Assembly: GCA_028875655.1 (NCBI GenBank)
Contig: JAPPCX010000068.1
Span: forward strand, 1-42,745
Direction: 5' to 3'
Origin: Chloroflexota bacterium
GTDB taxonomy: Bacteria; Chloroflexota; Dehalococcoidia; Lucifugimonadales; UBA3495
Length of the DNA stretch: 42,745 nucleotides
Shown here: positions 12,856-40,883 of the stretch, piece by piece
Layout of the letters: each line of letters opens with the position of its first letter
Position numbering within the stretch: position 1 is the first letter of the stretch
Notes under the pieces: model-generated
Databases searched by the model: none
The model's input: the letters and a program-made list of their open reading frames with translations, nothing else
Told to the model about the DNA's origin: nothing
Made by a program: the position numbers and the translations under genes

Positions 12856-13398
12856 CTACCGGTCCACCAGGCAGGCGATCACTTGGGGCACTGCGGTTGC
12901 TGCCCGTTCCGACAGCTCGCCGTCGTTGAGGGTGACGATGGGGTGCTCGATGATGGCCAGGCCGTACTCCGGGTCGCCGCGCATTCGGGACATGGCGTGG
13001 GCCTGGCTGATGAAGGGGCGGGTGGTCAGGACGGTTGAGGGTATGCCCAGGAGGTCGGTTTCCATTGCGTCGTGCACACTGCACGCGGTGCAGGACCCTC
13101 ATTCAGCGGTGGCGTGTATTGCCACGTCGATGCTCTTGGCGGTGCGCTGCAAGTCCTCGATGCGGGCCGGCCACTGCCAGCCGCCCTTGTTGTGCTCAAC
13201 GGTTCCCTTGATGTCGTACCGCTCGCCGATGATGGCGGCAATGCGCCGCAGCAGGTCTTCAGAGTGGGGCTTGTTGTTGGCGAACAGGCCGATGACCTTG
13301 CCGTCCAGCGTCGCCGGCCGCTGCGCCAGACGCGCCGGAGCCTGCGGCCCGTCGTCGCGGGGATCCATTGTGATGATTGAGGCGCCGTTTATGGTCAT
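12856..13398 (-). CDS. UGSC-family selenoprotein (in-frame TGA read as selenocysteine)
   Basis: A 180-residue protein if the TGA at 13101-13099 (minus strand) is decoded as selenocysteine 100. The frame continues without another stop for 80 codons to TAG. Around the TGA the protein reads HATAE-U-GSCTACSVHD, the U-G-S-C motif that names the UGSC (seleno)protein family, with further Cys at 103 and 106. Start ATG 13398 has a strong AAAGGAGG site. A hairpin lies 14-28 nt after the TGA (13071-13085). UGSC proteins are thought to be thiol/selenol redox enzymes, but I know of no established reaction. The gene follows a conserved partner on the same strand 43 bases upstream. A standard caller would report two fragments or a truncated protein. 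Confidence 0.88.
13071..13085 (-). promoter_or_regulatory. Bacterial SECIS-like hairpin of the UGSC gene
   Basis: Read on the minus strand, nucleotides 14-19 after the TGA (CGUGCA) pair with 23-28 (UGCACG), leaving the loop GUG at 20-22. The loop falls where the GGUC loop of the E. coli fdhF SECIS falls (about nt 19-22). An alternative 6-bp hairpin (CUGCAC/GUGCAG) starts nearer the TGA. The same geometry is repeated after the TGA of the glutaredoxin-like gene at 40604. Confidence 0.7.
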
Positions 13399-13441: not shown

Positions 13442-14440
13442 CTATGGCAATTCCACCCGGCGCGTTACCGAGCGGCTGCTGCCCCAGGTGCTGATTAGGC
13501 TGACGAATCCGCCGGCCATGCCGCCGCCGGGCAGCACGGTGATGCGGTCGGCATCGGCTACCACCGGAACCATGCGGTCGTGGTCCAGCTCGTGGCCCAT
13601 GCGGTGCCAGCGCATCCACTCGGCTACCGGCAGCTGCGCCTTGTCGTGCAGAAACTCGGCAACCTGCCGCCGGCTCCAACCGGCAGCGGCGATATGCAGC
13701 ATCGCCTCCGGGCTGATTACGCAGATTATCTCCGGCATTCCGGGGCCGAAAGCCAGCATGGCGTGGGCTACGGTGGTCAGGAAGTCGGCCGGATCCCGGT
13801 CCCCGTGCAGCGTCACCTGCAACGGGCCCAGCGTCGCGTAAGCGGTGACTATCGTGGCGTCGTCGCCGTAGCCCAGCTCCGAGGCCAGCGACGGCCAGGG
13901 GCTGACGGCCAGGTTTTCCGGGAAGCAGAAGGTGATTTTGCCCGGATGCCCGAAAGTGCTGTTGTCCATCACCACCGGAACGGAACCGTAGAAATTCGCC
14001 TTGAACAAGTTGACCGCCCGGCCGATGGCGGCGTTGGCCCGGCTGCCGTTGCCCATCATCTCCACGCCCGGATTCATGCCGATGGCGTCGGCGTAGGGGC
14101 CGCTGACCATGGTGAGCACGGTCACGCCGTTGGTGGAGGTGCTGCTGGCGTGGAGGTTGAACGAGCGGTCGGCGATGGCGGACAGCGAAGCCAGCACTAC
14201 CGGAAAATGCTCGGGGAGGCAGCCGGCCATCACCGAGTTGACCGCCGCTTTGCCGGCCGTGAACCGCTTTTGCCGGATCACCTCGGTGCCCAGGTCGTGC
14301 TCGGCGGAAACGCCGGCGTAGTCCAGCATCGCCTGCACGCGCTCCGGCGTAGGCGGCACGATGGGCAAGCCGTCGGTGAGGCCATTGTCAAAGTAGTAGT
14401 CCTGGGCGGCGCTCCAGTCGTTGAAACTGTGTGTGGTCAT
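13442..14440 (-). CDS. Conserved protein of unknown function, partner of the UGSC selenoprotein
   Basis: A soluble protein of 332 residues from ATG 14440 (a GTG at 14452 is an alternative; neither has a strong ribosome site). I do not recognise a characterised family. Near the N-terminus it has TDGLPIVPPTPERVQAML, later MGNGSRANAAIGRAVNL, then GHPGKITFCFPEN. There is no signal peptide, membrane helix or CxxC motif. It is transcribed toward the UGSC gene, with 43 bases between its stop and that gene's ATG, so the two probably form one operon and perhaps two subunits of one selenoenzyme. A weak CATAAT (14479-14484) could be the -10 box. Confidence 0.75.
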   Translation of the reverse strand: MTTHSFNDWSAAQDYYFDNGLTDGLPIVPPTPERVQAMLDYAGVSAEHDLGTEVIRQKRFTAGKAAVNSVMAGCLPEHFPVVLASLSAIADRSFNLHASSTSTNGVTVLTMVSGPYADAIGMNPGVEMMGNGSRANAAIGRAVNLFKANFYGSVPVVMDNSTFGHPGKITFCFPENLAVSPWPSLASELGYGDDATIVTAYATLGPLQVTLHGDRDPADFLTTVAHAMLAFGPGMPEIICVISPEAMLHIAAAGWSRRQVAEFLHDKAQLPVAEWMRWHRMGHELDHDRMVPVVADADRITVLPGGGMAGGFVSLISTWGSSRSVTRRVELP

Positions 14441-14497
14441 GTGGTCAAGCACTCACTGGTTGTGGAATGGTAGTTGGGATTATGCCATTGTTTCACC

Positions 14498-14874: not shown

Positions 14875-16290
14875 TCATCGTTTGGGGGATTGTCGTCCAC
14901 CCTGGCGGTAATCGGGCGCTTCAATTGGCCACTCGGTCACCACCAGTGGGTCTTGCAGGCGGGAGGCGATGCGTGGGCGGGTGGCGGCGATGTCCTCAAT
15001 TCTGTGAGATGTAGTGATGATGGTGGGGAGTCTTTCTTCGTAGCGGTAGCCCACAATCTGAAACAGCTTGTCCTCGGCGAACGGAGTGCTCCGTTCCGCT
15101 CCCATGTCGTCCAGCACCAGCACGTCGGCGGTTCTGATGCGGTCCAGCAGGTCGTCGTGGGCGATTGGGCTGTCGGGCGCAAAGGTGGAGCGGAGATAAT
15201 CGAGCAAATCCGCCACCGTCGCAAAGAATACCTCGTCCCCCTGATCTTCCCGTTCAGCGGCGGCAGCGACAGCAAGATGCGTTTTGCCCACACCGTAAGG
15301 CCCATGCAAGCTGAGCCAACCGTTAGGATTGTTCGACCAACGCTGTACGTAGGATTTAGCCGACCGGAGACTGCTCTTTTCGTGTTCTGCCAGCCCGCCG
15401 TTGCCTTCCGGGTTGAAAGCTTTGAACGTCATGCGTTCTCTCATGTTGGCCGGTATCATTCCAATCGTCCGGCCCGACATTCCGCTGACTCTTCCCAGAC
15501 GATAGAGCCGGCCAGACCCGTCTGCCGACTCCAGCCGGGTACGCAGGAAATCGTCCAGGTGGCCGGGGTCGCCTCTCAGGGTGACTACCGTCGGCAATTG
15601 CTGGGAGTGCCGCCAGGCCAGCAACTGGAATAGACGCTCCTGGCCCCAGGGGCTGGATGGCCGCGCCGGCAAGTCGTCCAGTACCAGCAACTCGGCTTCC
15701 CGCACCTGGTCGAAAAGGTCAATGAAACCCATTTCGGAATCGTCGTCAAACCCGCCGCGGAGGTAGTCCAGCAAATCCGCTGCGGTGATAAACAGCGCCG
15801 GGTTCCCCAACTCAATGCGCCGGTTGGCGATGGCGGCGGCCAGGTAAGTCTTGCCGCTACCGCTGGGGCCGGCAAAAGTAATCCAGCCCGACGGATCATC
15901 AGCGTATTTGGCGGCGTAGATACGAGCGTCGGAGAACGCCTTGCGACCCGCCGGGTCATTGCTCAACCCGCTGGGATCGGCGTTGGCAAAAGTAGCCAGC
16001 TTCAGTGCGCCGAGGTTGCTGTATCGCTCCAACGCCTCCGTTCGCCGTGCCCGGTCAGTGGCCGACCCCTGGCACGGGCACGGAATCACTTTGCCGAAGT
16101 CGGGATGCTCCACCGGAACCGGCGCGGCAAGCCAGCCGGCGCCGGCGCACATCGCGCAACTTTCAACTGCCCTGCCGTTCGTCTGCGTCGTCAGACTCCC
16201 ACGGTAGTCGTCCGTGTCGCCGTCGGTAGCTCTCCAGGTACCCCGTGCGGCGATCCGGCGGAGTATCGTGCCCAGGCTTTCCATCGTCAT
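14875..16290 (-). CDS. Tandem double-AAA+ DnaC/IstB-like helicase-loader ATPase
   Basis: A 471-residue protein with an N-terminal zinc-binding-like cluster (Cys45, Cys48, Cys71, Cys73) and two DnaC/IstB-type ATPase modules in a row. Module 1 has GPSGSGKT (141-148), LLVLDD (201-206) and RTRLES near 251. Module 2 has GPYGVGKT (330-337), LVLDDMGAE (391-399) and RIASRL (440-445), a likely arginine finger. Known loaders (DnaC, DnaI) have one such module. It is last in the rplI-dnaB-dnaD operon, which supports a role in loading DnaB. The start (ATG 16290 or 16284) lies inside the DnaD gene, overlapping it by 128 bases in another frame; starting later would lose the first Cys pair. Confidence 0.85.
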   Translation of the reverse strand: MTMESLGTILRRIAARGTWRATDGDTDDYRGSLTTQTNGRAVESCAMCAGAGWLAAPVPVEHPDFGKVIPCPCQGSATDRARRTEALERYSNLGALKLATFANADPSGLSNDPAGRKAFSDARIYAAKYADDPSGWITFAGPSGSGKTYLAAAIANRRIELGNPALFITAADLLDYLRGGFDDDSEMGFIDLFDQVREAELLVLDDLPARPSSPWGQERLFQLLAWRHSQQLPTVVTLRGDPGHLDDFLRTRLESADGSGRLYRLGRVSGMSGRTIGMIPANMRERMTFKAFNPEGNGGLAEHEKSSLRSAKSYVQRWSNNPNGWLSLHGPYGVGKTHLAVAAAAEREDQGDEVFFATVADLLDYLRSTFAPDSPIAHDDLLDRIRTADVLVLDDMGAERSTPFAEDKLFQIVGYRYEERLPTIITTSHRIEDIAATRPRIASRLQDPLVVTEWPIEAPDYRQGGRQSPKR

Positions 16291-38871: not shown

Positions 38872-39353
38872 CCTTCTCCAGCTCCGTATTCCTGCCATAG
38901 GCGCGCCGTCGTGTCTCCAGCCACGCCGCTGCCGAACCCCCGCCGGCGCAGGAAGTCCCACATCTTGCGGCGGAACGTATGGTAGTCCATTTCCCCGCCC
39001 GTAAGCCATTGTCGCGCCCGCCGCTCACCGGCCCGGTACGCGCTGCTGGACTCATCCAGGCTTTCCAGCGTGGCGTCGATGATGCCGTCCGCGATGCCTT
39101 TGGCCCGCAGTTCCCGCCGCAGCGCGAACCGCCCTCGCGGTCTGCGCCGTTCCCGGCTGTCCCGCCAGCGTTGCGCGAATTCGGCGTCGTCCAGATACCC
39201 GTAACGGCTGAGCGAGGCCAGCACTTGCTCAACGACGGGCTGGGAAAACTCTTTCCCAACCCGTCGGCGCACTTCGGTTATTGATCTCTGCCGGAAACTG
39301 ACGTAGCGCAGCGCGACTTGCAGCGCCCGCGCATAGTCATCGGATGCGTCCAT
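38868..39353 (-). CDS. recX: Regulatory protein RecX
   Basis: RecA modulator of 161 residues made of three-helix repeats: ALRYVSFRQRSITEVRRRV, SRYGYLDDAEFAQRWRDSR and RRELRAKGIADGIIDATL are typical. The ATG overlaps the recA stop by one base (TGATG), the usual recA-recX coupling. Its stop codon lies within the stop of the convergent membrane-protein gene, so the transcripts overlap. Confidence 0.93.
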   Translation of the reverse strand: MDASDDYARALQVALRYVSFRQRSITEVRRRVGKEFSQPVVEQVLASLSRYGYLDDAEFAQRWRDSRERRRPRGRFALRRELRAKGIADGIIDATLESLDESSSAYRAGERRARQWLTGGEMDYHTFRRKMWDFLRRRGFGSGVAGDTTARLWQEYGAGEG

Positions 39354-40468
39354 CAGTTGAGGCTGACCCGGTCCGCGCTGGCGAGGTGTGGCGCGTCACC
39401 GTTCCCTGCCGCCAGCCCGTAGCCGTTGCCAACCCCGTCCGGGTCGATTCCGTCGGGGTCGTCTTCGCCCCGGATCAGCGCCTCAATGGTGCCCGATATC
39501 TCGGGGTGTTCGCTCAGGAAATTCTTGGAGTTTTCCCGGCCCTGTCCCAGTCGGGTCTCTCCGCAGGAGTAGAAAGACCCGGCCTTCTTGATGAAACCTT
39601 GGTTCACGCCGATGTCCAGCAGGTCGCCCATCTTGCTGATGCCCTGGTTGAACATGATGTCAAACTCGGCCACCCGGAACGGCGCAGCTACCTTGTTCTT
39701 GACGATCCGCGCCCTGACCCGGTTGCCGATAATCTCCGAACCTTGTTTCAGAGATTCAGTACGGCGCAGGTCGATTCGCACCGAGCTGTAGAATTTCAGC
39801 GCCCTCCCGCCGGGCGTAACTTCGGGGCTCCCGTAGGTGACGCCTATCTTTTCCCGGATCTGGTTGATGAAGACCACCGCCGTCCGCGACCGGTTGATCG
39901 TGGACGTCAGTTTCCGCAGGGCTTGCGACATCAGCCTCGCCTGCATCCCCACGTGGATGTCCCCCATGTCGCCTTCGATTTCGGCCTGTGGAACCAGCGC
40001 GGCGACGCTGTCGATTACTACGGAATCCACCGCGCCGCTGCTGACCAGCTTTTCGGTGATGTCCAGGGCCTGTTCCGCTGAATCGGGCTGAGAGATGAGC
40101 AGATTATCCAGGTCCAGCCCGCAGTTGGCCGCGTATTGCGGATCCAGCGCGTGCTCGGCGTCGATGTATGCCGCCAGCCCGCCCTGTCTTTGCGTTTCGG
40201 TCATGATGTGGATCGCCAGGGTGGACTTTCCTGCCGACTCCCCGCCGTAGATTTCGGTCACCCGGCCCCGGGGCAGCCCGCCTACGCCCAGCGCAAGGTC
40301 CAGAGACAGCGAACCCGTCGGTATGACGTTGGTGATCAAGTGGGCCACCTGCTCGTCGCCCCGCATCACGGCGCCCTTGCCGTGGTCTTTCTCAATGCGG
40401 CCCAGCGCTATTTCCAGGGCCGCCAGCTTGTCCTTGTCCAGATTTAGAGTTTCCGGGTTAATCGCCAT
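39353..40468 (-). CDS. recA: Recombinase RecA
   Basis: Strand-exchange and SOS co-protease, 371 residues. Walker A is GGESAGKS (75-82; GPESSGKT in E. coli). [48 protein letters not shown] and the C-terminal acidic tail are all present; no intein. ATG 40468 is chosen over an in-frame GTG at 40480 because GTGAGG then serves as ribosome site and the N-terminus matches the family. The promoter upstream has a LexA-box-like sequence in its spacer. Confidence 0.98.
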
Positions 40469-40505
40469 ATCGAACCTCACACGCTGTTACGATTTATTCG
40501 CGACG

Positions 40506-40534
40506 ATATTAGCACGTGCGTTCCGGCAATGCAA
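40506..40534 (-). promoter_or_regulatory. recA promoter with candidate LexA box in the spacer
   Basis: Minus strand: TTGCAT (40534-40529), 17-bp spacer, TAATAT (40511-40506). Inside the spacer GAACGCACGTGC (40523-40512) differs at one base from the GAAC-N4-GTTC half-site pattern of Bacillus-type LexA boxes. The promoter is well supported; the LexA site is a candidate. Confidence 0.7.
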
Positions 40535-40575
40535 CACCCAATTGTCGCCTTTTTGAAAACTTCCCAACGTTAAAC

Positions 40576-40590
40576 GGGGCGCACGGCCCC
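40576..40590 (-). promoter_or_regulatory. Bacterial SECIS-like hairpin of the UXX-star gene
   Basis: On the minus strand, nt 14-18 after the TGA (GGGGC) pair with nt 24-28 (GCCCC) around CGUGC, which places GUG at nt 20-22, exactly as in the UGSC hairpin at 13071-13085. It lies after the TAG, so it need not encode protein. It could instead be a terminator stem, but only GTTTAAC follows. Confidence 0.6.
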
Positions 40591-40594
40591 TGCT

Positions 40595-40834
40595 CTAAAA
40601 GTCTCAAAACCCTCCCTCGAACCCAATCGTCACCACGCCGTTCTCCACGATTATGGGCGTAATGCGCTCCCCGCCCGAAAGCTCCAGCAGGGCCGGAATC
40701 TGGTCCGGCTGCTTGGACACGTCAATCTCGGTGTATGCCACCCGCTGCCGTCGATAGTGCATTTTGGCTTGAGCCGAGAACGGGCAATCAGGGTGGGTGT
40801 AAAGGACGATTTCGGTCTGCTCTGCGGTGGTCAA
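40595..40834 (-). CDS. UXX-star-type glutaredoxin-like selenoprotein (C-terminal TGA as selenocysteine)
   Basis: A thioredoxin-fold protein of 79 residues if TGA 40606-40604 is selenocysteine 77; it then ends U-D-F-stop (TAG at 40597-40595), the U-x-x-stop ending that names the UXX-star (seleno)protein family. The body is glutaredoxin-like: EIVLYTHPDCPFSAQAK (Cys17, second Cys replaced by Ser), ITPIIVENG, and VTIGFEGGF just before the TGA, much like the GFGG ending of that family. The start is TTG 40834, with AGGAG six bases upstream; an ATG at 40864 has no ribosome site. Promoter at 40884-40912. If the TGA is a true stop, the protein is 76 residues. Likely a redox protein with a Cys17/Sec77 pair. 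Confidence 0.78.
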
Positions 40835-40883
40835 AATAGTCTCCTGAACCGGGTTCTGCTTCATGTCTTGATGGGATTGCCCA

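Follow-up and report, generated by a model that had tools for sequence, protein, structure and literature searches.

Two in-frame UGA codons in a 42,745-nucleotide contig of a Chloroflexota bacterium from the class Dehalococcoidia (Lucifugimonadales, UBA3495; GenBank assembly GCA_028875655.1, contig JAPPCX010000068.1; the whole contig is referred to as the window) are each followed by a short hairpin of the same geometry, and both hairpins are almost certainly ordinary bacterial selenocysteine insertion sequence (SECIS) elements. One lies within the coding sequence of a UGSC-family selenoprotein gene, the other just past the stop codon of a glutaredoxin-like UXX-star family 2 gene (Table 1). 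The assignment is based on the gene families, the selenocysteine (Sec) machinery genes of the source genome, the conservation and covariation of the hairpins, the conservation of their loops and their absence from cysteine (Cys) homologues, and it would entail SelB binding and Sec insertion at both UGAs. Two selenoprotein genes, which automatic annotation would shorten, are thereby confirmed in a genus rich in UGSC paralogues.

Counted from the base directly 3' of the UGA, both hairpins consist of a 5-bp stem at nucleotides (nt) 14-18 and 24-28 with GUG at nt 20-22, which confirms the shared geometry reported in the first-pass annotation of the DNA. Among the 1150 TGA triplets on both strands of the window, five pairs at these positions follow 10 when G-U is allowed and 3 when only Watson-Crick pairs are counted, while five Watson-Crick pairs together with GUG follow 2, namely the two selenoprotein UGAs; the joint occurrence of hairpin and GUG is more than chance would give. 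The model of the bacterial SECIS element specifies a loop of 3-9 nt, an upper stem of 4-16 bp, a UGA-to-loop distance of 16-37 nt and an energy of -7.5 kcal/mol or lower; a G stands among the first two loop bases, in most cases with G or U after it, and the flanking bases N1 and N2 often pair (PMC13188914). Both hairpins agree with this description: the UGA-to-loop distance is 18 nt in each, the UGSC hairpin has 5 bp and an additional A-U pair that the flanks of AGUGU can form (giving a loop of 3 or 5 nt), and the UXX-star hairpin has 5 bp and a 5-nt loop, CGUGC, in which the flanking C and C cannot pair. The UXX-star stem alone reaches -10.1 kcal/mol.

Evidence for selection on the UGSC hairpin comes from bases that the protein leaves free. 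The hairpin with its loop GU is present in 55 of 57 genes of the class, against a mean of 1.4 and a maximum of 6 in shuffled sequences. Furthermore, in a set of 82 UGSC genes from many phyla, found by a pattern that left nt 10-24 (hence nt 14-18, nt 24 and the loop) unfixed, the wobble base at nt 15 is G in 81 genes against a background of 39%, and all 68 genes with serine at nt 19-21 use AGU for it, a codon that makes up 6% of serine codons in the same genes. Both the covariation score and the number of changed cells in the UGSC alignment exceed those of all 500 shuffles, and further paired stem changes occur within the class set, such as GGCC/GGCC (L047), GCGC/GCGC (L055) and GAGC/GUUC (L041). 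On these comparisons, the wobble bases track the stem, and the UGSC hairpin is evidently under selection.

The UXX-star hairpin lies 3' of the stop codon, so that protein constraint cannot account for it. Among 50 distinct sequences of the class, 41 carry the loop G-U at nt 19-21 on a stem of five or more pairs, whereas dinucleotide shuffles of the set yield a mean of 0.46 and a maximum of 3. The first-pass annotation had named hairpins of equal quality at the same rate after unrelated TGA stops as an outcome that would count against its proposal; only 4 of 208 TGA stops that end other long open frames are followed by such a hairpin, one of the four (L023) being itself a UXX-type TGA, compared with 41/50 in UXX-star and 55/57 in UGSC genes. 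Because relatedness inflates such counts, an arm-permutation test was performed with one UXX-star sequence per genus, in which sequences were split at the loop G-U and their 3' arms swapped. In two of three draws, 18 of 19 native arm pairs are complementary, and in the remaining draw 16 of 17; the 2000 permutations averaged about 6 such pairs and never exceeded 13. Every level of the stem shows several pair types. The hairpin was found in none of five Cys-type homologues, a sample of five sequences only, further candidates having escaped the search pattern. Taken from sequence comparison, the UXX-star hairpin, too, is under selection.

Several points weigh against reading the two hairpins as SECIS elements. 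All five stem pairs occur in 82 of 82 cross-phylum UGSC genes, but the search pattern fixed CAY-GAY (nt 25-30), by which four of the five pairs were partly preselected. Within the same set, UGG at nt 16-18 is accompanied by an NNC codon at nt 22-24 in 34 of 34 genes and UGC by NNG in 48 of 48, yet the underlying C-G/G-C switch at nt 18/24 took place only about two times on the tree, so that the raw counts of 48 and 34 overstate independence and do not represent independent events. On the energetic level, the isolated five-pair UGSC stem reaches only -7.2 kcal/mol and passes the model's limit marginally with adjoining pairs included (-7.6 to -9.0 kcal/mol). Folding of the UGSC RNA from nt 1-31 to nt 1-40 favours an alternative pairing, with a hairpin probability of at most 0.1; the probability is at least 0.92 if folding begins at nt 8-13, as when the ribosome covers the first bases, and 0.86 in a 45-nt fold.

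Raw pair counts in the UXX-star alignment are likewise blurred, as 3/5-nt and 4-nt loops stand in different registers, which is why the arm-permutation test was used instead. In addition, a covariance model built from the UGSC and UXX-star families was used to scan the 3.45-Mb genome in full. The eight best matches were the UXX-star gene and seven of the eight UGSC genes, but the training set already contained three of these eight matches (L108 and the two window genes), and a fourth shows no difference over the 38 modelled bases, so that the scan is only a partly independent test. The next matches (E 1.9 and 3.0) lack signs of a selenoprotein gene, and the scan revealed no further convincing selenoprotein genome-wide. 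Moreover, that the UGAs are probably not plain stops is a judgement from conservation alone.

Against this background, it may be asked whether the hairpins are by-products, the UGSC hairpin of the TxCSVHD motif combined with codon bias and the UXX-star hairpin of chance or of an intrinsic terminator. Some of the UGSC stem is indeed specified by conserved residues; the UXX-star hairpin, for its part, has a high GC content and stands just 3' of a stop codon. However, the UGSC wobble positions nt 15, 21 and 24 are constrained well past what codon usage would explain, which rules out a mere coding by-product, and amino-acid changes accompany paired base changes, as in the GGCC/GGCC stem of L047. 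The UXX-star hairpins lack a U-run (TTTT within 8 nt in 1 of 50) and gave no matches in a terminator scan, which excludes intrinsic terminators, and the five Cys homologues lack the hairpin. A by-product origin is accordingly considered very improbable. Still more improbable, to the point of being negligible, is that the UGAs are ordinary stops in frameshifted or decayed genes into which no Sec is inserted. UGA does usually act as a stop, but all eight UGSC paralogues of the genome carry one in-frame TGA, Dehalococcoidia and other phyla have kept the UGSC frame downstream of it, and the Sec machinery is complete (selA, selB, selD and tRNA-Sec), as the bacterial SECIS model demands of a host; selD carries an in-frame UGA of its own. 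The SECIS reading proposed at the outset is thus upheld by compensatory change, wobble constraint, absence from Cys homologues and full machinery.

A different question is whether the shared GUG marks a lineage-specific SelB recognition loop, N-GUG-N, as the first-pass annotation had suggested, here taken to be fixed at nt 20-22 and coevolved with a divergent SelB. GUG does occupy these positions in both window hairpins and is the commonest triplet there in UGSC genes of the class (44/57). Nevertheless, only G20-U21 is nearly invariant, whereas nt 22 of the UGSC genes may be any base, being the first base of a Val, Leu, Met, Ile, Phe or Thr codon: across the 82 genes it follows the encoded amino acid, with G in 35, C in 18, A in 15 and U in 14. 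Other UGSC genes of the source genome itself have GUA (L108), GUC (L105) and GUU (L104). In the UXX-star relatives nt 22 varies freely, with 11 GUG, 11 GUU and others at nt 20-22, and the loop shifts by 1-2 bases, its G-U beginning most often at nt 20 (29 of the 46 relatives in which it lies within nt 18-21). Furthermore, the selD gene of the source genome shows GGACCUG-GGU-CAGGUCC after its UGA, with a probable loop, read by eye, at nt 28-30, so that the spacing between UGA and loop would not be fixed within the genome.

The same G-U loop also recurs in UGSC genes of Pseudomonadota, Acidobacteriota, Actinomycetota and a Neobacillus, and this, together with the variation of nt 22 in genome, class and phyla, rules out a lineage-specific GUG loop, an idea that now appears highly improbable. 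Of the expectation that related genes would show covarying stems with a conserved GUG, the covariation therefore stands, while the conservation is confined to G20-U21. In line with this, the C-terminal domain of a same-genus SelB aligns with Moorella SelB structures, its last segment (SRKYVLPLLEYLDQ..TRRVGD.RV) being nearly identical, and nothing in the sequence of the winged-helix segment points to a novel way of recognising the RNA.

The ordinary SECIS reading suggests the following mechanism. Loaded with Sec-tRNA-Sec, SelB would use its C-terminal winged-helix domain to bind the apical G-U loop while the upstream UGA, 18 nt before the loop, occupies the ribosomal A site, and the UGA would be decoded as Sec. 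In the UGSC gene the hairpin would be formed from coding sequence, with the serine codon kept as AGU and the wobble bases kept complementary; in the UXX-star gene, only two sense codons follow the UGA, hence the hairpin falls after the real stop codon, where it may evolve free of coding. The shared geometry would then reflect a general bacterial rule of UGA-loop spacing and loop sequence rather than a lineage-specific loop. About 50 such coding-free SECIS elements show what is kept, namely a short stem, the loop G-U and the spacing.

Of particular interest in this context are relatives with a second UGA. At nt 7-9, where the UXX-star frame ends, the 50 relatives have UAG (23), UAA (17) or UGA (9). 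The nine genes ending in UGA (L073, L082, L084, L092, L102, L144, L147, L009 and L012) thereby hold two UGAs, six bases apart, upstream of one hairpin, the second about 10 nt from the loop. Because UAA and UAG interchange at the same place, the second UGA is suggested to be a true stop; SelB would recode the first UGA and spare the second, consistent with spacing rules. It is about as likely as not that the recA-linked UXX-star genes of this Dehalococcoidia family contain a natural untranslated-region SECIS that recodes a UGA about 18 nt away and spares one 9 nt closer; if they do, the double-UGA genes would constitute a natural test of how strict SelB spacing is.

Compared with the bacterial SECIS consensus (PMC13188914) and the SECIS-SelB systems of E. 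coli and Moorella, with which the C-terminal winged-helix domain of SelB is held in common, the elements described here differ in no fundamental way, except that the UXX-star copy lies entirely past the stop rather than in the coding region. Bacterial SECIS elements are placed in coding regions by a review (PMC13188914) and are often found there (PMC10778597), whereas proteins engineered to carry a C-terminal Sec in E. coli deliberately use a post-stop SECIS (PMC10778597, PMC3834832). Rat thioredoxin reductase produced in E. coli shares with UXX-star the near-C-terminal Sec and the SECIS after the stop (PMC10778597, PMC3834832), but that construct is artificial, whereas UXX-star occurs naturally.

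UGSC proteins have been known as selenoproteins since the 2008 Global Ocean Sampling analysis (PMC2398784). The window protein, with its UGSC motif at residues 109-112 of the translation, matches PF24696 with 139.6 bits (cut-off 25) and NF041046 with 107.2 bits (cut-off 125), and belongs to the Pfam family while falling outside the stricter NCBI equivalog. It shares with the known family (PF24696, NF041046) the Sec in UGSC and the multiplicity of paralogues, and differs in its score below the NF041046 cut-off and in carrying AEU instead of GDU or ADU. Eight paralogues (L045, L103-L109), each with one in-frame TGA, are found in the 3.45-Mb source genome, and at least 13 in some relatives. As a separate observation, the UGSC genes L060-L067 could form a longer, 10-bp alternative hairpin between nt 3 and 30 after the UGA (GUCGUGCACG...UGUGCACGAC), which would mask the SECIS loop and is possibly a by-product of codon choice.

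The UXX-star protein, with its FUDF-stop end, scores 110.3 bits against NF041211 (cut-off 100). UXX-star families 1 and 2 are listed in a 2026 review (PMC13188914); a description of the family 2 SECIS was not found in the literature searched, which offered little on UXX-star beyond table entries. With family 2 (NF041211; PMC13188914) the gene shares the glutaredoxin-like character, the U-x-x-stop end and a score above the curated cut-off, while the genes of this Dehalococcoidia family are distinguished by adjoining recA, directly upstream of it. The source genome has this arrangement (39353-40864, reverse strand), as do 28 of the 30 loci L073-L102 of the family; it is not seen for a second copy in one genome (L086, in G256) or for a locus at a contig edge (L091). 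Elsewhere in the class, loci L152-L177 encode glutaredoxin-like proteins whose T-x-x-U-P-Y-C active site contains Sec.

Table 1. Window positions of the two selenoprotein genes, their recoding elements and recA.
Feature	Position	Strand	Details
UGSC-family selenoprotein gene	12856..13398	-	One in-frame UGA read through; MTINGASI...ATAEUGSCTACSVHDA...; start codon inferred
UGA predicted to be read as Sec (U of UGSC)	13099..13101	-	UGSC genes of relatives have TGA at the same codon
UGSC SECIS hairpin, within coding sequence	13071..13085	-	nt 14-28; CGUGC-AGUGU-GCACG; covariance model 41.9 bits, sequence in training set
UGSC SECIS conserved loop G20-U21	13078..13079	-	GU in 57/57 class genes, 80/82 across phyla
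UXX-star (seleno)protein family 2 gene, glutaredoxin-like	40595..40864	-	Ends ...GGF-U-D-F-stop (UAG); start codon inferred
UGA predicted to be read as Sec, third-last sense codon of UXX-star gene	40604..40606	-	
True stop UAG	40595..40597	-	nt 7-9 after the Sec UGA, 5' of the hairpin
UXX-star SECIS hairpin, entirely past stop codon	40576..40590	-	nt 14-28; GGGGC-CGUGC-GCCCC; covariance model 38.9 bits, sequence in training set
UXX-star SECIS conserved loop G20-U21	40583..40584	-	GU starts at nt 18-21 in 46/50 relatives
recA, next gene downstream of UXX-star gene	39353..40480	-	Pfam RecA, E 6e-124; UXX-star SECIS lies between the two genes

Two further open reading frames lie on the same strand upstream of the UGSC gene. 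A frame of 336 residues (13442-14452) has no Pfam match at 1e-5. The other, of 471 residues (14875-16290), is located near a dnaB-like gene and matches IstB/DnaA-type AAA domains in its C-terminal half, preceded by a second AAA-like stretch; it is possibly a helicase loader.
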